A stretch of 64,000 nucleotides of DNA from Polytrichum commune (lineage: Eukaryota > Streptophyta > Polytrichopsida > Polytrichales > Polytrichaceae). Position 1 is the stretch's first letter. Every line of letters starts with the position of its first letter. The translations under genes and the position numbers were made by a program. This document shows positions 1 to 62,990 of this stretch, piece by piece. Where the stretch lies: the NCBI GenBank assembly GCA_950295325.1, contig OX485803.1, positions 66,727,554 through 66,791,553 on the forward strand. The letters run 5' to 3'. The notes under the pieces were generated by a model that saw nothing but the letters and a program-made list of their open reading frames with translations, had not been told where the DNA came from and made no database searches.

Positions 1-1721
1 GCGTGGCTTAAAGGTGGATGAGGGTAATCCAACACTTTCATCTCAAATTGGTATTATGGCACGCAATCCTAGTCCTTCAACATCTACACCTAACACTCAA
101 GGCAATGATGGACCTAAGTTTTCTCATATTTCGAGATCACAACGATCTCAACATGTGTCAAAAACCATTGTCAATGGTGCTTCATCTTTTGGGCCAATTT
201 CTTCAGTGATGTTGGAGAAGATTTCAATACAAACATTGATAGAGAATGGTTGTCATGAAAATCTATTAATGTTGAAAACATTCGAATTTGTGACTAAGGT
301 TAGTATACTGAACATTGAACTTATTTTTATTTTATAAAATATGGTGTTGATTTTGCAACATGCTTTGGACTTGAATGTAATTATTATTTTTTGGTTCTTT
401 TGATAGGTGGGTTCCGGACGCAAGAGGAGGGTTTCTTCAGAGGATTGTAATTTTGGAGGTTTTGATCTTGTTATTGCAGATTTGCCAGAAGGTTTACCTG
501 TACCTAACGTTTCATCTCCTCCACATGTAATCCCAGGTTGGAACGACCACAAAAGAAAGAACATTGAGGCTCTATTTGAATTTGCATGTGCATATCTCAC
601 CAATGATGGCCCCTTGCTTTTGTTTGTCCCTGAGAAGAAAGATGTCAGAGACGATGTAAGGACATTCGCAGCCTCCTATGATTTTGTATTGCGAAAAGAT
701 TGATGGGGCTTCAACGAGTTGCCTTTGTGTTATCCACTTGACACGTCGTTGACGGTATACATTAAATTTTATTATTTATTACTTTGATTTCTATTTTTTC
801 ATTGTATTGCAATGTTCTCCTCAATTTTGCAATCGAATCCTCCGCTAAAGATTTGCTTGTGATTTATAGACTCATCGTTTCCGCATCATGTTGTTTCTTC
901 GTTCTACTCCCAAGTCGGAGTTTGTTTTTCAAAAAAGAAACGCAAATACTGAGGTGGATGTGGAGGCCTTGGATGTGTTCTTCAATCTCACATCGGCGAG
1001 CACTCAACTCATGAACGGAAAAGTGCCATGGAGAGGTGGTAGGGAGAAGGACTCGGAATCTATGCAAATCTTAATAGAGGCTTTAACAACCCCCGCATCG
1101 GTTGTCCTCGATGCTTACGCATCTACAGGTCGGTTTATTTCTTACTCAAGGACCTATTATATCATCTCTCAATGTGTTTTAATGAAGTCACTATAGTGTT
1201 GTCAGTGGTTTTTGCAAATTAACTGACATTGCAATATTTTATTGGCAGGTGCATCTATTCATGCTTGTAGAAATAGTGGCCGCCATCTAGTTGCATACGA
1301 GGAAGATTTTGCATTGTTTGATGCTATTCTATCCCCATTAAGTGATCCACTACCAACTACTAGTGTAGGTGGATTTATGCCACCTAATGCCTCCATCGAT
1401 TCCGATGAAGAGCTTGTTAAGAAGGTTGCGAGAAAAAATCCATTGAGAACGTAAGTTTTTAATTTCTCCATATTGTTTGCTAACTTGGCCTCCAATGCCT
1501 GGTATGTGTGCACTAGAAGTCTAACACTTATGATTTTATTTCGCAGAAAAAAGAACAACATGACTTCATCTCCAAATATGGGTTTGCCAATATATACTAA
1601 AAATGTTGCTCAAATCATGGCAAGATCAGTGACGCCAACACCTCGCCGTATGTCTGCACGAATTGTCTGTAACCCGTACGTAGATGATGAAGCGATTCAA
1701 TGCGATGATCTAAATGATTAA
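1..1721 (+). pseudogene. N4/N6 DNA-methylase-like gene, 3' part, five exons, one in-frame stop
   Basis: Seen: five exons join in one frame with GT/AG borders: before 1 to 298, 407-754, 870-1128, 1249-1450 and 1547-1721 (stop TAA). Exon 2 encodes FDLVIADLPEGLP, in the place of the catalytic (D/N/S)PP(Y/F/W) motif IV. Exons 3-4 encode WRGGREKDSESMQILIEAL, then VVLDAYASTGASIHA and GRHLVAYEEDFALFD. This matches the EKP, DPFxGxG and GR-xxGIE segments at the C-terminal side of beta-class (permuted) N4-cytosine/N6-adenine methylases. Known: these enzymes are mainly bacterial and methylate exocyclic amino groups in DNA. Inference: a eukaryotic, probably nuclear relative. Both core motifs are degenerate (DLPE for DPPY, DAYASTG for DPFxGxG), so activity is doubtful. 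Odd: TGA at 701-703 interrupts the frame between FVLRKD and WGFNELPLCYPL; a TGG-to-TGA change would explain it. The 5' end lies outside the window. It could be a pseudogene, or the stop could be a private allele. Confidence 0.68.
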
Positions 1722-6954: not shown

Positions 6955-7326
6955 CACTAAATATGATATTTAGTGTCACATGGTATTTGATGTCACTATG
7001 GTAACTTTTTGGATGACACTTCTGATGAATAAGTGATCAAATACTGTCATGGATGATGGATGAGTTCATCCATTGGCCAATACCCTACCTTCTATTGTCA
7101 ACAACTTGTGATGAAATATTGTCATGGATGATTGAAATTTGGATGAAAATTCACTTAGTAAGTGACAGTGATTGCAACACTGTAAATCTATAATCCCCGA
7201 AAAATTACAAGGAATGACAAATAATGTTGGGTTAACATTTAGCATTGGTGACACACTACACTGTGGTTTACAATTAGTATTGAGCAAGACAATTAGAATT
7301 GGTGACACTAAATATCATATTTAGTG
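6955..7326 (+). mobile_element. MITE, 372 bp, palindromic CACTAAATATG termini (copy 1)
   Basis: Both ends carry CACTAAATATGATATTTAGTG or its close reverse complement, so each terminus is itself a ~21-bp palindrome. The interior, from CACATGGTA to GTGTCACC, matches the inverted copy at 8073-8445 almost end to end. TA follows the right end; the left flank reads TC, so the expected TA duplication is mutated there. No coding capacity. TA flanks suggest a Tc1/mariner-related MITE, but the termini also begin CACTA and end TAGTG, so the superfamily is not settled. Confidence 0.75.
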
Positions 7327-8072
7327 TAGTCTCTCACAGGTTTCAGCTCAAAGATATCTTCACTTGGAAAACAAAATGGCCCATTTTCGTGACCACTCAA
7401 CTGAAAGTTTTAAGATTCTGAACCCAATTTCGTGCACTCCTAGAGAGAAATGATTTAGACTTTAATATAAAGCATCATGACACGTTATACAGGAAGTCTT
7501 GAAAATGGAAGAAGCAGGATATATAGTGACCATGTTTAAGACTACTTTGCCGATTCTGAGCTTCTTGAATTATTTATAAGTTTAATACACACAAATTTTC
7601 TCCTTCTTGAAGTAATTAGTTTAGCTATGGACACTAACCAGACATACCCAGCAGCTGGATCCAGATGTGAGCATATTTCGACATCTTGATTTGGATACAA
7701 ACTATTTAAGCACCTGCATTGACAAGCATGTATTGAAGATTTGACGATATTCAGTACAGTAGTAACCTGTGTGTGTCAGTTTGGAGTAATTTTTTTTCCC
7801 CCTTTTGTGCAGCTTTTGGCGATTCATGCAACTGTTATTTACAACATGGTACAATGGTAGCCACATGGAAAATATTGACTTGTTCAGTACTGATGGAAGT
7901 GCTTCCGTCCAAGAGAAACTTAAATTATGAGCTTGGTAGTACTGCTTCTGAATATAAACTGAAATACTTGAATTTGACAGGCCAACCAGAGTCACCTTTT
8001 CAGTCAACCTCACAGTTTCATCTGCATGCAGCACTGTTAGTTCTTTTACATTCTAGTAAATTTAAATAAGTA
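7327..8072. other. Spacer between two inverted MITEs
   Basis: About 745 bp. A 98-codon plus-strand frame at 7773-8069 resembles no family I know. I looked here for laccase exon 1 (signal peptide plus first strand) and could not identify it. Confidence 0.4.
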
Positions 8073-8445
8073 CACTAAATATGATATTTAGTGTCACCAG
8101 TTCTGATTGTCTTGCTCAATACTAATTGTAAAAACTGTGTTGTAGTGTCCCCAACACTAAATGTTAACCCAACATTATTTGTCATTCCTTGTAAATTTTT
8201 GGGGGATTATAGATTTACAGTGTTGCAATTACTGTCACTTACCAATTGATTTTTCATCCAAATTTCAATCATCCATGACAAAATTTCATCACAAGTTCTT
8301 GACAATAGAAGGTAGGGTTTTGGCCAATGGTTGAACTCGTCCATTCATCCATGACAGTAATTGTTCGCTTATTCATAAGAAATGTCATCTGAAAAGTTAC
8401 CATAGTGACATCAAATACCATGTGACACTAAAATCATATTTAGTG
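8073..8445 (-). mobile_element. MITE, 373 bp, palindromic CACTAAATATG termini (copy 2, inverted)
   Basis: Inverted copy of the element at 6955-7326, with the same termini and the same interior order reversed. It is flanked on both sides by TA (8071-8072 and 8446-8447), consistent with a TA target duplication. The two copies could pair over ~370 bp in a read-through transcript. Confidence 0.78.
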
Positions 8446-12480: not shown

Positions 12481-12940
12481 GTAGATTTATCTCTTACATT
12501 ACCACTGTATTAAATAGTTGATTTAGTGTGACCACATCTAGAAAAATATTCCAGGTGTATGTCACATTAATATTGAACAAAGTATTTAAATTTTTAGTGT
12601 TGTCTTGTTACATATTATCTAAGTTCTTGTCACATTAAGTCCTAATCTTTATCATATATTAAGTTTGACACAGAATAATCTATGTTCATGATAAAACAAA
12701 ATATGGTGCACGATAGTATACATTACTGAGAAAAGTTGTTACTAGAAGAATAATTCAGTGACCAGCCACGATAATTAGCGTAATGTTCATGTGGTAGGTC
12801 GATGATAAAAAGTGTGGCCCGAACTAAATTAGATATATACAGGGTAGAAATCTCTGCCAGTTTCTGTCATAATTTTGTAAATACTGCAATGAGAGTGATC
12901 TCAGGTTGCGTAGAGGCCAAGCCCACAGCTTCTTAATTAA

Positions 12941-13462
12941 GGGCCGCTTTACACCTAGAGGCCGGGCCAATTTGTTGTGTAAGAGGCTTGAAATCCTCAC
13001 TTGTGATTGGCCAAAAGGCTGAAATCGGCCTCAACCCCTTTACACCTAGAGGTCGGATCGATTTGGTGGTATGATTTCCTTTTTTTATCAAAAAATGCAT
13101 GGTATGACATTGCCCGAGCTTGTTGAATTGGGTGCACCCAAAATGGAGGGCCAATGTCACATTTCAATACAAATTTTTTTTGTAATAAAATATAAATTTT
13201 CAACGAACTATATCCATTGGATTATGTGAAAATATGAACGGCTCTATCCTAGATTATGCTAGATCCGTTGGATTATGCTAGATTTATTGAATCAGCCTAG
13301 CTTCTTGGCCCTAAAGCCAGCCTTTACATATGGAAAAATTAACCCCCATTATAATCTTATTATAATGTGTAGTTGAGGCCGACCTCCAACCCAAAAGGGG
13401 CTGAAATTTCATGCAATTGGCCTCAAGGGAAATTGGCCCGGCCTCTAGGTGTAAAGCAGCCC
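12941..13462 (+). mobile_element. PIF/Harbinger (Tourist-like) MITE, 522 bp
   Basis: Ends GGGCCGCTTTACACCTAGAG and CTCTAGGTGTAAAGCAGCCC, flanked by TAA on both sides (12938-12940 and 13463-13465). A second, inward copy of TTTACACCTAGAGG lies near 13040. An inverted copy of the whole element, with the same interior, is at 46811-47344. Inserted in laccase intron 3. Confidence 0.87.
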
Positions 13463-13666
13463 TAACACCTCTTTTTCATATATTCTTCAATTCAAAGTGG
13501 GTATATATCTTGCTACTTCAAGGCCACAGGCGGCCTGCTTCTAGTCATGCCTGCTTCTATGTCTTAACATGATGTATGCTATGCTCACTGTCATGGCCCT
13601 TAATTATCTTACAGACTGTTTGCTAGCTTTGAATGAGTTGACCAGCGATTTCCAAATATTTGGCAG

Positions 13667-28773: not shown

Positions 28774-30384
28774 TGTGAGGCCAAATCCACCACCCTTAAG
28801 CGTCCTAGTCCGGGTGATGGCTTTGCGAGTCACATGTATCTCTTACAAACTTGAACCATGTGCAAAGTAATTTTTATGTCCAAAAGAACACATATTGTTT
28901 CCACTCATTGTACTTTATTAATGTTAGCCTCTTGGCTTGTGGTAGAGTTGGCTTTCTCAAGCGTCCAACCCGTGGCTTTAGCCACACATGCCCTTAAGGA
29001 CATTTCCCTCGCTCGTTTAATCTTCACTTCCTTTTTCTTGCCATTGCAAGAATCTTCCACATTCTCCATTAATAATGCAAGTGAGTTATTTTGACCAAGA
29101 GGTGCAAGTGTTGAAAAACACTTTTCTCAATGGTTAAACACACTCATACAAACCCACACGTGGCACCAACTAGCCTAAATGAATATAACTTCTTAGCTAC
29201 CACTAAAGATGGCCTAATGTGATCTAGTTTTTTATGTGCTAATACTTACTACTTGAGCTAGCCTTGCTAACCCCTAGATAGTCTAAATGAATTGTTGCTA
29301 GGCAACCCAGCTGCCTTCTGATTCCAGTCCCGGGTATGGTCTAACCTCCAAGCCCAGCTGCCTTTGATTCCAGTCCCGGGTGGTCTAACCTCCAAGCCCA
29401 GCTGCCTTCTGATTACAGTCGCGGTGTGGCCTAACTTACCAAGCCCAACTGCCTTCTGATTACAGTCGCGGTGTGGCCTAACTTACCGAGCCCAGCTGCC
29501 TTCTGTTCCAGTCCCGGGTGGTCTAACCTCCAAGCCCAGCTGCCTTTGATTCCAGTTGCGGTGTGGCCTAACTTACCAAGCCCAGCTGCCTTCTGTCCCA
29601 GTCCCGGGTGGTCTAACTTACCAAGCCCAGCTGCCTTCTGATTTCAGTATATGAAGTTATAATACCCGAATGGGTATCCCAACCACTAGTTGCACCCTAA
29701 TCCAAACTCTCTCCTTCCCTAATCACATGTTTTCTAAGTTTTTCTTCTTCTTTCTTTTTCCTTGCTCCTAAATAATAAACTAATCTAACACACTAATTCC
29801 ACTAACTACTAACTAATCAACACGTGCAACTTTAAACTCTAAGAGCTCCCTCAATTGGGAGGCATTGAGAGAGAGAGAGCTTAACTAATTAACTTCACTA
29901 AGAACTAATGTCTCACACACGTGGCTCAAGCTCTTTAAGAGCTTGCTCTCTTGAAAGCGCTTGATGGAGAGAGAGGAAAATGAGAGAGAAACCACCTTAA
30001 GTAGCAAAGACGGAGAGAGAGGTGAGAATAGGGTGAGAGGATTAGCACCTCCAATCACAATCCCTTAACCTTCACCTTCAAAGTAGGGACTAATCCCCTT
30101 CCACCAAGCTTCCTTCTTCCTAAACTACCAAGGTGGATCCAAAAGTGGGCATTTAACCCGCGGAGCTCACCTTGCTTCACCTTACCCCCTACTCACAATA
30201 TCAAGGCATACTCTTATTGAATTCAACCTTGAAATAATCACACAACACATTCTAAAGCCTAAACTTAAATCCAAACCACACTTCACTCATTTATGTTTTG
30301 TGAATAATCATAACACATCAAAGTCAAACTAAAATTGGTTTCGAAGAGTTAATCACCACATGTGGGCACCATTTTGGGCTCACA
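28774..30384. mobile_element. Solo LTR A, 1611 bp
   Basis: Starts TGTGAGGCCAAATCCACC, ends ATTTTGGGCTCACA (TG...CA). Flanked by a perfect 5-bp duplication GGAGG (28769-28773 and 30385-30389), as expected of an LTR-retrotransposon integrase product. The left end shares TCCTAGTCCGGGTG with copies B and C. No protein domain and no second LTR, so a solo LTR formed by LTR-LTR recombination is the simplest reading. Unusually, the two termini are inverted repeats of each other over TGTGAGNCCAAA. The phrase TTAGCCACACATGCCCTTAA near 28980 recurs in copy B. Confidence 0.8.
29303..29650 (+). repeat. Minisatellite of ~45-50-bp units inside LTR A
   Basis: About eight units of the form GCCCAGCTGCCTTCTGATT + CAGTCCCGGGTGGTCTAAC + CTCCAA. 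Two unit types alternate, CAGTCCCGGGT and CAGTCGCGGTGT. Copy B lacks this array at the matching place. Confidence 0.9.
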
Positions 30385-36357: not shown

Positions 36358-36413
36358 AGGCGGTCCAGTGGAGCTTTGGCATCACTGACTCGGACATTTG
36401 GATGTGAGGGAAC

Positions 36414-36716
36414 ATTTATGCACTAGAAAGCATAGTAAGAGGCATGAACCTAGGTAAAATTCTTTGTCCCACCTCTACATTGGGTTGCGAAGCATGCACG
36501 GAGGGTAAGCAATATGCGGTGAAGTGGGACAACGATGCGGAGAGACAAACAACAAAACAATCGGAGATTATGCATTCGGGTGTTTGTGGCCCCATGAGGA
36601 ACGTGTCCGTGGGAGGGACAAGGTATCTTGTTACTTTCATTGATGATTTTTCAAGGAAGGTGTGGGTTTACATGATGAAATGCAAAGAATGGTGTGAATG
36701 CAAAAGGATTGTATGA
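36414..36716 (+). pseudogene. Ty1/copia gag-pre-integrase/integrase fragment
   Basis: The frame encodes GCEACTEGKQ, then IMHSGVCGPMRNVSVGGTRY, then LVTFIDDFSRKVWVYMMK. These are the end of the GAG-pre-integrase zinc region (CxxC...GKQ) and the start of the copia integrase core (HSDVCGPM, FIDDFSRK). In the family the first catalytic Asp is in H-S-D; here it is Gly (SGV). The frame ends in a stop after about 90 codons, and nothing of RT or RNase H follows. It abuts LTR fragment D, but D belongs to another family, so the adjacency looks accidental. Confidence 0.85.
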
Positions 36717-46559: not shown

Positions 46560-46810
46560 TTTAAGTTTGTTAATATTAGATTTGTTTGCTAGGTGCCAAG
46601 GGCAGACTTCATTGTATTCTTTAGATGTGCGGCCTCACGCAAGCATAATTGGGTAGAAGCTGTTGATGAAGTTCCGCAATTCGGGTTGTAAACTCCAAGG
46701 ATATTCATGAGTCCTTAATGCTATTGTGTCAGAATGAAGAGATTCTGTGTCAGAAATCTTGATGACATAATGCAACGATGTGTCAGGTTGAAGGAGGGCC
46801 AACTAATTAA

Positions 46811-47344
46811 GGGTCGCGTTACACCTAGAGGCTGGGCCAATTCCCTTTGAGGCTGATTGCATGAAATTTCAGCCCCTTTTGGGTTGGAGGCCAGCCTCAA
46901 CTACACATTATAATAAGATTACAATGGGGGTCAATTTTCCTATATGTAAAGGCCTTACTGCCAAGAAGCTAAGCCGATTCGATAAATCTAGCATAATCCA
47001 ACGGATCTAGCATAATCTAGCGTAGAGTCATTCATATTTTTACATAATCCAATGGATTCGGTTCACTAAAAAAACATATTTTATTAAAGAAAGTTTTTTT
47101 AATTGAAATTTGACATTGGCCCTGAGGCCAAGAATTGGCCTTCCATTTTGGGTGCACCCAATTCCATGAGCTCGGGCAGTGTTATACCATGCATTTTTTT
47201 ATTAAAAATTTCATACCACCAAATCGCCCCAGCCTCTAGGTGTAAAGGGGTTGGGGCCAATTTCAGCCTTTTGGCCAATCACAAGTGAAAATTTCAAGCC
47301 TCTTACACAACGAATTGGCCCGGCCTCTAAGTCTAAAGCGGTCC
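46811..47344 (-). mobile_element. PIF/Harbinger (Tourist-like) MITE, 534 bp, inverted copy
   Basis: Ends GGGTCGCGTTACACCTAGAG and CTCTAAGTCTAAAGCGGTCC, flanked by TAA (46808-46810 and 47345-47347). The interior is the reverse complement of the element at 12941-13462, including the inner CTCTAGGTGTAAAGG copy near 47234 and the CCATTTTGGGTGCACCCAA block. Right terminus more worn than left. Confidence 0.86.
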
Positions 47345-47347
47345 TAA

Positions 47348-52863: not shown

Positions 52864-53230
52864 GTGTAGTTCAGATTTTGGATATGACTAAATTCATGGA
52901 AACACTCATGGAATTTAAGAGTCTCTCAATCATGATATATGCATTTGTGATCGTCTCTCAGTATCACACTAATTCACTAGCGATATAGCTTGGCAATGAG
53001 TTTATTTGACTGGGACCTTGTGCAGTGTGCAAACATAGGCACAACCATTGTCTAAAATCTTGAAATAAGTGTCTTATTTTTATTTCTTTACCAAAGCCAA
53101 GGGCACTTTTATGTGGTCAATAATCTTGAAATGATTATTCTTTGTAATCTTATTTGAATTAGTAGTGTAGTCAACCTTGTAGGGTTTCAATTTTCTTTGA
53201 TTAAAATTACAATTTAATCATGATGTCAAG
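52864..53230 (-). mobile_element. Second copy of the LTR-like repeat of 2391-2890
   Basis: TGTAGTTCAGATTTTGG, GGAAACACTCATGG and CAAACATAGGCACAACCATTG follow the same order as at 2391. The primer-binding-site-like motif seen there is absent here, so this is probably a solo or truncated LTR. Similarity fades near 53230. Confidence 0.5.
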
Positions 53231-55514: not shown

Positions 55515-57950
55515 TTATGTTTCCCCATCTCCATCTTCCACTTCACATCCATTATTGGCATCATTTTCTACAACTGCAATGCGTGCCAAGTTGTCTTTGG
55601 CATGATCTATATGTTTTTTGGGGATGGTCATTGTTTCCGATTTGAAACCCTTGCACAGCTTCCAAGCACAAAAAATGGTATCCGTATTTATCCAAATTGG
55701 TCCGTGCATTGAGTCCATTCTCCACTTAAAACCTTTTTTGGTGTCCCAACCTAAATAGGTGAGGAGCATGTTCTAGTCTTTGGTGTTTGGACGGTAATAT
55801 TCCACTTCAATTTAACGAAAGTTGGGGCTAGTTTGAACAAAATTGGGTGAAGGCAATGCTTTCAGCAACCAAATTGGCTTGACATGCTCTTCATCTTTTG
55901 CACGTACAAGGACCATATAACCTTTGTGACAATCAACAACCACACAAAATGATGGAGCCGGACGATTGCACTCATGATCAACATAATGTTTGTCCACTGC
56001 GAACTCTTCACGGACGTCTGCATTGTTGAAGAATATGGCATCGGACTCCACAACTATGGGTCAATTTTGTAGCTAAAATCCTTGTGTCAAAGTTGTACGG
56101 GTGTCGACACAAAGTGTTCATAAGGCCAAACGAATGTGATCCCATGCAATCAATGGTTCATGAGTATCCCGAACTGTCTTGTGATGTTTACCTCACATAA
56201 CTCTTTCCAATATTCAATGAATCCAAATATACATTTGATGATTTCCGGCCCATTCCTCATGGGGTTGGGTTTGCAAATCTTCAAATTCCCATTTGGGAGC
56301 ATACATTTCTCATCTTTATCTTGAAGCTACACGAATATACCATCTTCCGGGCCCCAATTAGGGGATGTGCACAAAAAAATGAATTGCATGTTGGGGGACA
56401 CCATCATCTCTCATATAGAAGCGGAATTGTTGTGCTTTGGTATGTCCAACCAAACGGTCCACTCCTTAAGCATGTATGGCTTGATGAAGGCCTTGAAATT
56501 TGGTATTTTCTCAATCATGTACATGATCGTTGCCACATTGTTCAAATCCATGTATGATTTCATGAGAAATGATATGGTGGGAAAATCCTCTTCATGCAAT
56601 TTCATGCTCTTATGGCCGAATGACACATTAATGTCATCATGCGTGTGCCCCAGCATCAAGAAAGTCACAAACACCTCTTTGAAGATGTTTTTTTGCCATG
56701 AGCAACGACCAAAAACAAAACGTGTATTGATATTTGCTATTTTTAGTACAATTATCAAGTTGCATGTAGAATGTTGGAGGCAAGGGTTTAGCAAAAATGG
56801 GTTCTCTAGGTGGTTCTGGCAATGAAGACATACAAACATCCTTCCCCTGAAGCATTGCCTCATAAAGGGGTCTCGTTCCACAACCATCAAAAAGGGCATA
56901 GGTAGAGTGTACCGGCAGCTTCTCAAGATCGCGCAAGAGTCTTGTAAATGAACCGACCGTGTGGTTGGCACTGTTGGGGTAAATATCCAAACCATAATGG
57001 GCATATTTAACGTCCATATGGCCATGAGCAATCATACCTAAGAAAAACAAACAATGCATGAACAACAGAAATACGACATAAATACTATACGGATGGTTGA
57101 AGTTGGACATCTGGCAAACGCACCCAACACACATTTGGGATTCTCTACGAATTTGTGACAACTATGGGCAACTTGAAGACACCATCTGTGACTTTTTTTA
57201 CGTGAATAACAAGGGCATGCGGTCTTGGCATGGTCCACCTTATCATCGATGACTGTTAGAACCTCTGCGGGCCTTATTATGGATAATGCACGATTATTGT
57301 GGTAATCTTGACGGTGTGCCTTTTGATTGTTGACATGCTCAATAAATTTTTTTTGGTGTCTACTATGGGATTCAATGTCTATAGGATGGACATCTCGAAG
57401 ACCTTTATATTTTGTAATATGTTGTACACTAAGCAAACTTGTCTCCAAGTCTCTTCAAAATGTATTATGCAAACTGTTGGTTTTTAATTGCATTCAACTT
57501 TGACAAAGAAATGGGCCCACGTCTTGTTGTGCTACCCACTTCGTTGATGTCCGTCAAGATGTTCTTCATGTCACCATTTGAACAACTTTCTCCCCTTATG
57601 ACAATGTCTTGATCTTGTGGGCCATTGCATCGGTCAATGACACTATGATGGTGGAGAGTGTTGCAGAGGCTTGGAGTGCAGCCTCCCTAGGTTTCTTTGT
57701 GCCACAGTTGCTATAAAATCAAGAACGGCGACCCAACAAAAAATACTTCCGAAACCTATAAAAGTCAGCCTTGGAAACTATGTGAACGATGTGCCACGCT
57801 GTACAATACACTTTCATATTCTCAAGGATCACCACCTTATGGCCATGGGTATCAATGTGCAAATCTGTGTGGACCTCGAGGTTTTTTTGCCAACAATATA
57901 CAATATTCCGCAAGCCACATCTATTGACGAAGAAACTTAATTTTTTTGTG
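55515..57950 (-). pseudogene. Decayed DUF7869-type transposable-element gene
   Basis: Minus strand. 57850-57720: KVYCTAWHIVHIVSKADFYR, like the C-x3-W...I(S)xxxFYR segment near the start of such proteins. 57400-57230: FIEHVNNQKAHRQDYHNN and LTVIDDKVDHAKTACPCYS. 57036-56690: MIAHGHMDVKYAHYGLDIYP, NHTVGSFTRLLRDL and PTFYMQLDNCTKNSKYQYTF. After a frame shift at a T-run near 56690: FKEVFVTFLMLGHTHDDINV, KLHEEDFPTISFLMKSYMDL and IPNFKAFIKPYMLK. The pair QLDNC and GHTHDDI is the DUF7869 core as I recall it. The tail 56400-55515 (KAQQFRFYMRDDGVP, PNGNLKICKPNPMRNGPEII) is broken by more shifts and stops. Known: DUF7869 proteins are numerous in plants, algae and fungi and look like RNase H-fold element proteins; their role is not settled. 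No terminal repeats were located. Confidence 0.72.
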
Positions 57951-59717: not shown

Positions 59718-60440
59718 TTGGCCAGAGGACTTGAGCCCCGACCAAAACCCTTCATAGTTTTGGACCTCAATGGGGTGTTGTGTCACACCAAACACATCTC
59801 CAAAGTTCCCACGTGTCCTTTCCTTTATCCCAACGAGAGGGACTATGACGGCAAGCTCGACACTCTTATGAACCGCAAGGTTGTTCGTGCCCGTCCCGGC
59901 TTGTGAGACTTCCTTCGCGAGGTACTCGACTTAGCTCATGTCGTCATGTGGAGCTCTATGGTCTTGGAGAACACATAGCCCATCGTCAAGTTCCATTTTT
60001 GTGATCTCCCGAGCCCTTGACCCGTTCTTGGTCACGAAGCATGCGATGAGCTACTTGACAAAAAGGGTGTGATGGTGCCCAAGTTTTGTGGTCGAGGCGG
60101 AGGGCAACAATTCCTCAAGGTCTTGAGGTCCAAGTTGAGGGTAGGCATCCCCCACGGGTGTTGGCCAACTCTGGAGAACACCCTCCTCATCGACGACAAC
60201 CCCGCCAAGAGTGTTCTCAACCCCCCGGGCAACGTCATCTTCCTTGACCTATGGACTAGCAATAGGAAGGACACATTTTCAATCGATAGGCTAGCACCTT
60301 ACATTAAAAATCTTGTGGTCCACCCTAGAAGCGTCCCGGATATTGTGAGGTCCAATCCCATTGGCAATGTGGCATTAAGCCCCCGCGATAATGTATATAG
60401 GAGCATTGTTCAACTTGCGAGATTTAATAAATTAATTAGA
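59718..60440 (+). pseudogene. FCP1/NIF-type (HAD) phosphatase pseudogene
   Basis: Known: FCP1-homology (NLI-interacting-factor-like) phosphatases remove phosphate from Ser in targets such as the RNA polymerase II tail; the catalytic aspartates are in DxDx(T/V). Seen in one continuous frame: KPFIVLDLNGVLCHT (motif I; the second Asp is Asn, as in some plant relatives), VVRARPGL, DFLREVLDLAHVVMWSS (motif II), VKF, KFCGRGGGQQFLKVL, TLLIDDNPAKSVLNPPGNVI (motif III with DD) and FLDLWTSNRKD. Stops interrupt the frame at 59904 (TGA), 59976 (TAG) and 60018 (TGA), with no frame shift. Each could come from CGA or CAG by one C-to-T change. No ATG precedes the domain closely. It could be an intronless copy or one large exon. 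Confidence 0.78.
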
Positions 60441-62169
60441 AAAACCTCCGTGCATATGGTTGTGTCCATGTGGTTAACTTATCTAATGTTTGTTCCTTCT
60501 TTGGATGTTTTTGTTTCCCATAGTATCCCCCTGTATGTGACACCCTTGTTGTGACAGCCCTTCCCAACCCCCTCATCCCTTGGCTCCCCTTCCCGTGGCG
60601 TGACAAATTTCCAAATCCCCTTCCTCTACCAGTTCTCGGTAGATTACTCCAAGGACATCGGAATTGACGACGGTGTTGTGAACAACCCCCCCCTCCCCCG
60701 AGTTCTTGGCCACGTATATGCCCCGTCGCCCTCTCCCCTCTTCAAGGACAATTGAAGGCTTGAACGGTGCCGACAAGTTTTGCCCTCAAGAGATGACAAC
60801 TTCGCTCGTCGTGGGCTGAGCCAACGTCTCTGCATGGAAGCTCCACAGTGTGACCCCCCCCCCTTTGACTCCATTCCTCCTCCTGCAAACTCATCCGCGA
60901 TTCGTTTGCCCCATGCCGTGATTCATCCTGCAAACTCAAACTCATCGTTTGCCCCATGCCATGATTCCCCTCAATTATCGAACAATGCCACAATCCAATC
61001 GGCTCCGGATGCTTTTGGTGACACCCCCGTGGTGCCAATCGTGCCGCGCACTAATGTCCCCAAAACCAAGGTACCTTTCTTTGTCCCCTTTTGTTTTTTC
61101 ACCGTTGTTTTCCTTATCTTGCATTTGTGTGCCGTGCTCTTTACAAGCGCCCATCCCAAACCACCCCTCATTAATTTTCCCACTCCATTCTTCCTATGGT
61201 ATTGTTTCACAGGTCGCTCTGTGCTCGCTTGGTGGCTGGCCATCCTTGACTTCTTCATTGGATAGGCACGTCCTCAAGGCCACATCATCCGAGTCCGATT
61301 ATTGTTTGGCCGTCCGGAGGAGTGCATGACATTCCCTCTTGTAGATGCCCTCGTATTCCACTTACAATACGACGTCGTACAATTCGGGAGCACGTCGGGA
61401 TATCTGTCCTTGAAAATGCGCATCTACCATCCTCACTATCTTTGCCACATATTTTCAATCTTGATGCCAAACCTAGCAGTGTCTACGACTATGAGTACCG
61501 CTCGTCCTCCGGAACGCCTTCAAATCCATTTTAAGTTGATATACAATCTTCAAATATGTTATGAGGATACTCATGCATGGGCGTCAACGTGTACAACGGG
61601 CATTGACATCCAATGGAGGACTTGGACCCATAATGAAAAAGGTGTGAGTGATTTTTTTTAAGTTGTTTACATCTAGCACTATCATAAAAATTGGGGTATT
61701 GTCTAGACAAACATATGCTTCTGGGTGAGGTAGTTCTTTGAATAAATTTTCATTTTCATACTATTAATTTGCCAAACATGTTGAAGGTGAAGCATTAAAT
61801 TGCTCGTAATAATAGAAATGTAATACTAGAAGGAATAAATTTTCAATAAGCCTACAAGGTTGGTCCGTAGTGGAGAAGAGTTATCCCATTTTGTTTGTGA
61901 GAACCAAGTTGAAAATGAGCAATAAGAATCAAGGCAAGGGGTGATGATGAACATCTCACTCCAAACATTGTTCATATGCCTTTGTGTATGTGTTCTTGCT
62001 TGTGCAATATCATGTTTAGTCCTATTGACTTCCTATAGTTTATGGGCCCACGCATGCAAGTAGCCTACATATTTTGAGATTGTATAGTGGATCTTGAGGA
62101 GTTGGCACTTTGGAGCTTTGGAGTGTTGGAGGTGTCCAAGAGCGCATTTGGTTGTTGTAAGTGTTTCTT
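60441..62169. other. C-rich stretch 3' of the phosphatase relic, no clear gene
   Basis: Two 161-codon or shorter plus frames (end of 60069-60554 and 60780-61265) are rich in Pro and Ser. A possible intron runs from a donor GTACCT at 61072 to an acceptor TTTCACAG near 61212. This may be the 3' part of the phosphatase gene or a second gene scrap. I recognise no domain. Confidence 0.35.
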
Positions 62170-62990
62170 TGTGTTTTGCTATTGCTTGAATTTTTTTTTG
62201 ATACAAAGAGTGTTGACTTGTGAGCCTTGAGGGTTGAGAATCTTGTATGAGAGGTTTGGAGGTGTTCAAACTTTAAAAAAATATTAATTAAATGTTTTGA
62301 GTGTTGACAAGCTTATTTGAGAGGTTTGGAGGTGTTTAGACTTCGAACGCATCTGATTTGATTGTTTTGAGTGTTGAAAAGCTTATTTGAAAGTTTTGGA
62401 GGTGTTTAAATTTCAAAAGAATCCAACTTAAATGTTTTGAATGTTTGAAAGTGTACTTGAGAGATTTGGAGGTGTTTAGAGTTCAAAAGCATTTGACTTC
62501 AATATTTTGGATGTTTAAAGGCTCATTTGTGAGGGTTGATTGTTGAAAGGCTTGTTTGACACTATTCAAGGTGTTTTGAGTTGAAGGAAATGTTGTTTGA
62601 GTGCCTTGAGTGTGGAAAGGCTTATATGAATGCATTGAATGTGATTGAAGATAAAAAAAAAACATCTGAATTGAGTGACTGGAGAGTGCAAAGGGCCCAT
62701 TTGAGAGAAATACATTCATTTGAGTGAAACTAAATCTAACTTGAGTGATTGAAAGTCCTAACATACATTTGAGAGCAATTGGACTCATTTGAGGTGTGAG
62801 AGATCCGACTTGAGTGCTTAGAGTGTCTTTAGGCATTTTGGAGATGAAGTGGACTCATTTGAGGTGAAGAAGATCATACTTAAGTGATTTGATAGTTCTA
62901 GGGCATATTTGAGAGCAAAAGCTCTTATTTATTGTGATTTAGATATGACTTGAGTGATTTGAGAGTTTAAAAGTCCATTTGACACCACGA
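62170..62990 (+). repeat. Tandem array of 70-bp units
   Basis: The phrase GAGGTTTGGAGGTGTT or a variant recurs at 62251, 62321, 62391, 62461 and, weaker, 62531: exactly 70 bp apart each time. Each unit also contains TTTTGAGTGTTGA(A/C)AAGCTTA. Similar but diverged phrases (CATTTGAGAG, ACTTGAGTG) continue to about 62990, so the array once held ten or more units. No open frame spans it. Confidence 0.85.

Follow-up and report, generated by a model that had tools for sequence, protein, structure and literature searches.

A probable young pseudogene for a permuted amino-methyltransferase-fold protein in the nuclear genome of the moss Polytrichum commune

Here we present an analysis of a methylase-like gene from the moss Polytrichum commune, situated at the start of a 64-kb stretch of DNA (the window, to which all coordinates refer). 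The locus is probably a young pseudogene. It would be a copy of a plant-type nuclear gene with spliceosomal introns, the product of which would have had the permuted (beta-class) amino-methyltransferase fold and would already have lost its catalytic activity. The lesion is a nonsense codon; no other lesion was recognised, and every splice site is intact. The details of the gene are unusual, but its class is an ordinary one. Bacterial-type amino-methylase domains have already been recorded in eukaryotic genes.

The gene occupies positions 2-1721 of the + strand as five exons, with its 5' end cut off by the window start. The visible part of exon 1 (2-298), defined by its open reading frame (ORF) and the intron 1 junction, encodes a Ser/Thr/Pro-rich N-terminal region, and its frame is open up to the first bases of the window, which places the true start codon outside it. 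Exon 2 (407-754) carries the half of the methylase-like domain that includes motif IV, as supported by hhalign against a 17-sequence methylase profile; alignment locates the motif itself, FDLVIADLPEG, at 461-493, with DLPE replacing DPPY, DLPY or DLPF, and reading of the spliced frame reveals an in-frame TGA at 701-703, 5' of motif I. The motif X region and the beginning of motif I lie in exon 3 (870-1128), recognised by the rank of its ORF against the methylase profile, where DAYAST and the first base of the following glycine codon align at 1110-1128; the codon for this last motif I glycine is split by intron 3. By alignment, exon 4 (1249-1450) completes motif I and contains the acid of GRHLVAYEED (1278-1307), and exon 5 (1547-1721), read from the spliced frame, encodes a basic tail and the terminal TAA (1719-1721). 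The names IV, X and I are those of the motifs that we take these segments to represent.

The four introns (299-406, 755-869, 1129-1248 and 1451-1546) are 96-120 nt long, all begin with GT and end with AG, and have phase-consistent junctions that keep a single frame. They are also compositionally distinct, with 24-36% GC and 41-49% T (24% and 49% in intron 1) versus 37-46% GC and 26-31% T in the exons. Ahead of the final TAA, the 426 codons of the spliced frame include a single stop. Each of the other five frames has 14-33, and 1000 base shuffles had 25.9 stops on average and never fewer than 10. An initial annotation of this DNA had described four introns with clean GT/AG borders in a nuclear gene; the intron ends and their consistent phase confirm the first point, and the second is supported. 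The in-frame TGA and the extension of the 5' end beyond the window had been overlooked.

The same annotation assigned the product to the N4/N6 (beta-class) DNA methylases, and searches of three protein libraries agree with that assignment, each matching the motif I half: Pfam PF01555 (N6_N4_Mtase) at E 2.2e-4, NCBIfam PRK13699.1 at E 3.3e-5 and PHROG_3008 at E 4.5e-7. The Pfam comparison, named at the outset as a check on which no significant match would count against the assignment, therefore did yield a match, but its 21.7 bits lie under the curated cut-off of 26.7. Exon 2 by itself had no Pfam match. PF01555 was the sole Pfam family returned at E values up to 10, and MT-A70 gave no match in that search, in which the HMMER filters drop most hits above about 0.1. 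In translated searches (tblastn), the best 20 of 145 phage matches and the best 20 of at least 5000 plasmid matches included only distant methylases, with lowest E values of 1e-2 and 4e-3 respectively, and the moss protein is 22-25% identical to six phage and plasmid methylases. Compared with PDB sequences, it matched seven entries, every one at an E value above 0.1: six were methylases, DpnA and RsrI among them, and the seventh was a SKP1-like protein. Exact-peptide scans with the core found no close relative in IMG/VR, where one stretch fitted a pattern and was not a relative, or in the GTDB genomes, where 49 stretches matched and none was a relative.

Custom profiles were used as well, each with shuffled controls. 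Against a first profile of seven methylases, with 200 shuffles per query, the spliced core scored 72.2 versus a shuffle maximum of 25.2, and exons 3-4 scored 70.6 versus 21.8; exon 2 alone, at 22.3, fell under the shuffle maximum of 24.8 and over the 95th percentile of 18.5. A second set was made of DLP[YF]G-type methylases from IMG/VR, retrieved because they resembled a phage protein with DLPF. The two members of this set that were tested, L011 (1e-24) and L026 (1.6e-31), are clear PF01555 proteins, and L011 matches the CcrMI, DpnA, RsrI and MboIIA structures by sequence. With the resulting 13-sequence profile exon 2 scored 29.3 versus a maximum of 21.9 in 80 shuffles. Removal of one stop-bearing row and addition of five phage and plasmid rows gave the 17-sequence profile, against which hhalign scored the spliced core at 60.2 (E 1.4e-8), a score reached by none of 100 shuffles; the spliced core thus exceeded all shuffles in each of the three series (200, 80 and 100). 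With 100 shuffles each, exons 3-4 scored 59.9 versus a maximum of 20.1, and exon 2 alone reached a local score of 31.0 versus a maximum of 20.3, with a global score of only 16.0. Also, among the 58 window ORFs of at least 95 residues, the exon 3 ORF (33.5) and the exon 2 ORF (31.2) ranked first and second, and the next scored 18.9. Swapping the two halves lowered the global score against the 17-sequence profile from 64.3 to 45.5 and left the local score at 60.2, because exons 3-4 carry the local score. The DLP-type sequences were picked after DLP had been seen in the moss protein, which gives exon 2 some advantage and makes its score less firm evidence than the one obtained for exons 3-4. A single-sequence fold prediction for exon 2 alone, with the TGA read as Trp, was of poor quality (pLDDT 48.8) and gave the element order E-H-E-H-E, which would suit the class but does not prove it.

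Sequence comparison shows homology in each half of the domain, with motif IV ahead of motif I; it is strong for exons 3-4 and weaker for exon 2. It is very improbable that the motifs are coincidental and the domain unrelated to DNA methylases: the Pfam score below the curated cut-off and the E values above 0.1 of all seven PDB matches would suit such a chance resemblance, but the three libraries and the custom profile concur, the last with controls from shuffled sequences and window ORFs.

The spliced product contains motif IV (FDLVIADLPEG) upstream of motif I (VVLDAYASTG...GRHLVAYEED), which is the permuted order of beta-class N6/N4 methylases, and so both the motif order and the GRHLVAYEEDF segment noted in the initial annotation are present as described. 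In beta-class methylases the glycine loop has a role with the cofactor, and the acid on the motif I side and the motif X histidine also have roles of their own; unusual motifs are sometimes compatible with retained activity. The moss protein differs from its relatives at three places. The fourth position of motif IV is aromatic in all 17 aligned methylases and Glu (DLPE) in the moss protein; the first glycine of motif I, present in 17 of 17 relatives, is Ser (DAYASTG); and the motif X histidine, again in 17 of 17, falls at a gap in the moss row. The last glycine of motif I, found in 16 of the 17 relatives, is retained, together with the Asp of motif IV, VVLD, GR and the acid of YEED. According to the portion of PMC5023411 drawn on here, the motif IV aromatic stacks the target base.

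Both core motifs had been said to depart from the active consensus. This holds for the lost first glycine of motif I and for the Glu of motif IV, but not for the DLPxG frame, which is compatible with normal members of the family, so that in motif IV the Glu alone is unusual: of the 17 aligned phage and plasmid methylases, 12 have DLP[YF]G. Those 12 were retrieved through a DLPF protein, and the fraction is therefore no guide to frequency. With the aromatic residue, the first motif I glycine and the motif X histidine all changed and the core of the fold and the YEED acid kept, we infer that methyl transfer was lost; catalysis was probably abandoned in this protein lineage, in line with the earlier suggestion of a non-catalytic protein, which the changes in motifs IV, I and X make probable.

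The TGA at 701-703 is codon 198 of the visible frame and its sole internal stop. It precedes motif I, and the gene as written therefore encodes a truncated protein; on this ground the copy is regarded as now broken. About 4% of all single substitutions in the methylase-like coding sequence generate a stop, a rate at which a lone nonsense codon corresponds to roughly tens of neutral substitutions, that is, to recent decay. One such codon, in a copy where no second lesion was recognised, is compatible with recent decay, with a polymorphism or with an error in sequencing.

An alternative is that the gene is intact, with the TGA either an assembly or sequencing error or skipped by splicing, and that the locus expresses a pseudoenzyme of the methylase fold or an enzyme whose motifs are atypical. 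In favour of this are the presence of just one internal stop in 426 codons, within a frame and a set of four introns that are otherwise sound, and a 63-nt in-frame segment, from GT at 656 to AG at 718, that spans the TGA. Removal of this segment, possible in some transcripts, would however delete part of the methylase core, since it contains YDFVLRKD, which in the global alignment is placed against the methylase stretch YDWIWEK; nor does the segment have a clear pyrimidine tract by eye. We regard an intact gene as unlikely, and recent loss by a nonsense codon as the better account.

The remainder of the window was surveyed by protein-library scans of selected ORFs; 59 further ORFs were judged by eye, two of which were scanned too. 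A DUF7869 domain (PF25273) was matched at 56414-57161 on the - strand in two overlapping frames (3e-12 and 2.1e-11), and hence appears to be frameshifted; ORFs out to about 58159 seem by eye to be related but have no Pfam match. On the + strand, an integrase fragment at 36408-36713 (rve, E 0.01, below the cut-off) is presumably copia-like, judging by eye, and 60021-60551 gave a weak match, also below the cut-off, to NIF/FCP1-like phosphatases (PF03031, E 5.3e-4). Repeats of several kinds are present. An inverted pair, 6969-7328 and 8071-8432, has arms that align as four pieces of 92-97% complementarity, the innermost of which lie 742 nt apart, and is possibly a foldback or MITE-like element. 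A dispersed repeat in opposite orientation (12940-13463 and 46810-47345) is 83-91% alike in four pieces, tandem arrays with units of about 47 nt and about 70 nt occupy 29306-29648 and 62214-62662, and the sequence at 2587-2867, which lies downstream of the methylase-like gene, recurs at 52936-53218 with 74% identity. Rfam and tRNA scans of the window returned nothing.

The DUF7869 domain, the copia-like fragment and the T-rich introns would suit the nuclear genome of a land plant. The introns and the element fragments make contamination by bacterial DNA unlikely. The same surroundings raise the question of whether the gene was carried or captured by a mobile element. In that case it would be one of numerous decaying copies encoding a methylase-like protein borne on a transposon. 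The DUF7869 match, the copia-like integrase piece and the repeat common to 2587-2867 and 52936-53218 would be in keeping with such an origin, but a second copy of the gene was sought within the 64-kb window and not found, and no element gene was recognised adjoining it among the neighbouring ORFs that were scanned, which were a part of the total. A mobile-element origin thus seems distinctly improbable, and we retain the reading of the locus as a decaying copy of a resident plant-type gene.

The closest systems for comparison are the phage and plasmid N6/N4 DNA methyltransferases of the DLPYG type (PF01555, PHROG_3008), for example the adenine-specific methyltransferase of Aeromonas phage vB_AsaM_LPM4, which have the same order of motifs, IV, X, I. 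The DLPxG frame, VVLD, the last motif I glycine, GR and the acid that follows are common to these enzymes and the moss protein; the moss protein differs in having Glu for the motif IV aromatic and Ser for the first motif I glycine, in lacking the motif X histidine, and in its introns and its N- and C-terminal extensions.

Within eukaryotes, genes with an N6_N4_Mtase domain are counted in red algae in the section of PMC12115072 consulted, which gives 66 for Asparagopsis taxiformis, 6 for C. crispus, 5 for P. umbilicalis and 4 for G. chorda. These are eukaryotic genes described as having the domain found in the moss gene, and they make the moss gene less surprising. In its relevant passage PMC8885841 describes the N4CMT of bdelloid rotifers, a eukaryotic amino-methylase of bacterial origin with the motif SPPY, as well as a Marchantia 4mC methyltransferase, also of bacterial origin and recently duplicated; the Marchantia enzymes bear the names MpDN4MT1a/b in the corresponding part of PMC8566409. 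Both MpDN4MT1a/b, likened here by description, and the bdelloid N4CMT are active, unlike the moss protein, which is predicted to be dead. PF01555 hits are given as absent from Acanthamoeba castellanii, Cyanophora paradoxa and Naegleria gruberi in the portion of PMC12344493 that bears on them. A limited literature search, judged mostly on titles and abstract openings, found no published description of this moss gene.

A precedent for a maintained inactive subunit is provided by METTL14, which has a beta-class fold and, like the moss protein, a motif IV that lacks the aromatic residue. It belongs to the MT-A70 family, a family different from that of the moss protein, which MT-A70 did not match. 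Its motif reads EPPL, and the protein is inactive and has non-catalytic roles, as set out in part of PMC5023411. On this model a sequence of events may be proposed. The protein of this lineage would have kept the methylase fold and lost methyl transfer, as suggested by the retention of fold residues, the change of catalytic residues and a frame that is otherwise open. The catalytically dead protein would then probably have acted as a nucleic-acid-binding subunit or partner, by analogy with METTL14 and METTL3. The nonsense codon would have been acquired by this copy afterwards, and its present output would be at most a truncated product devoid of motif I, or an mRNA that is cleared by nonsense-mediated decay.

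More tentatively, it is conceivable, although we think it doubtful, that a nuclear family of catalytically dead proteins with the bacterial-type N6/N4 methylase fold is maintained in some land plants, serving as non-enzymatic readers of DNA or RNA or as partners of an active methylase, and that this copy is a freshly broken member of it. The locus is one damaged copy and matters as a lead towards relatives that are intact; the set of 66 genes in Asparagopsis taxiformis is a further place to look for members that lack the motif. A lineage in which the fold was kept and the chemistry lost would show that a domain, once acquired, can find a new use as a reader or scaffold.
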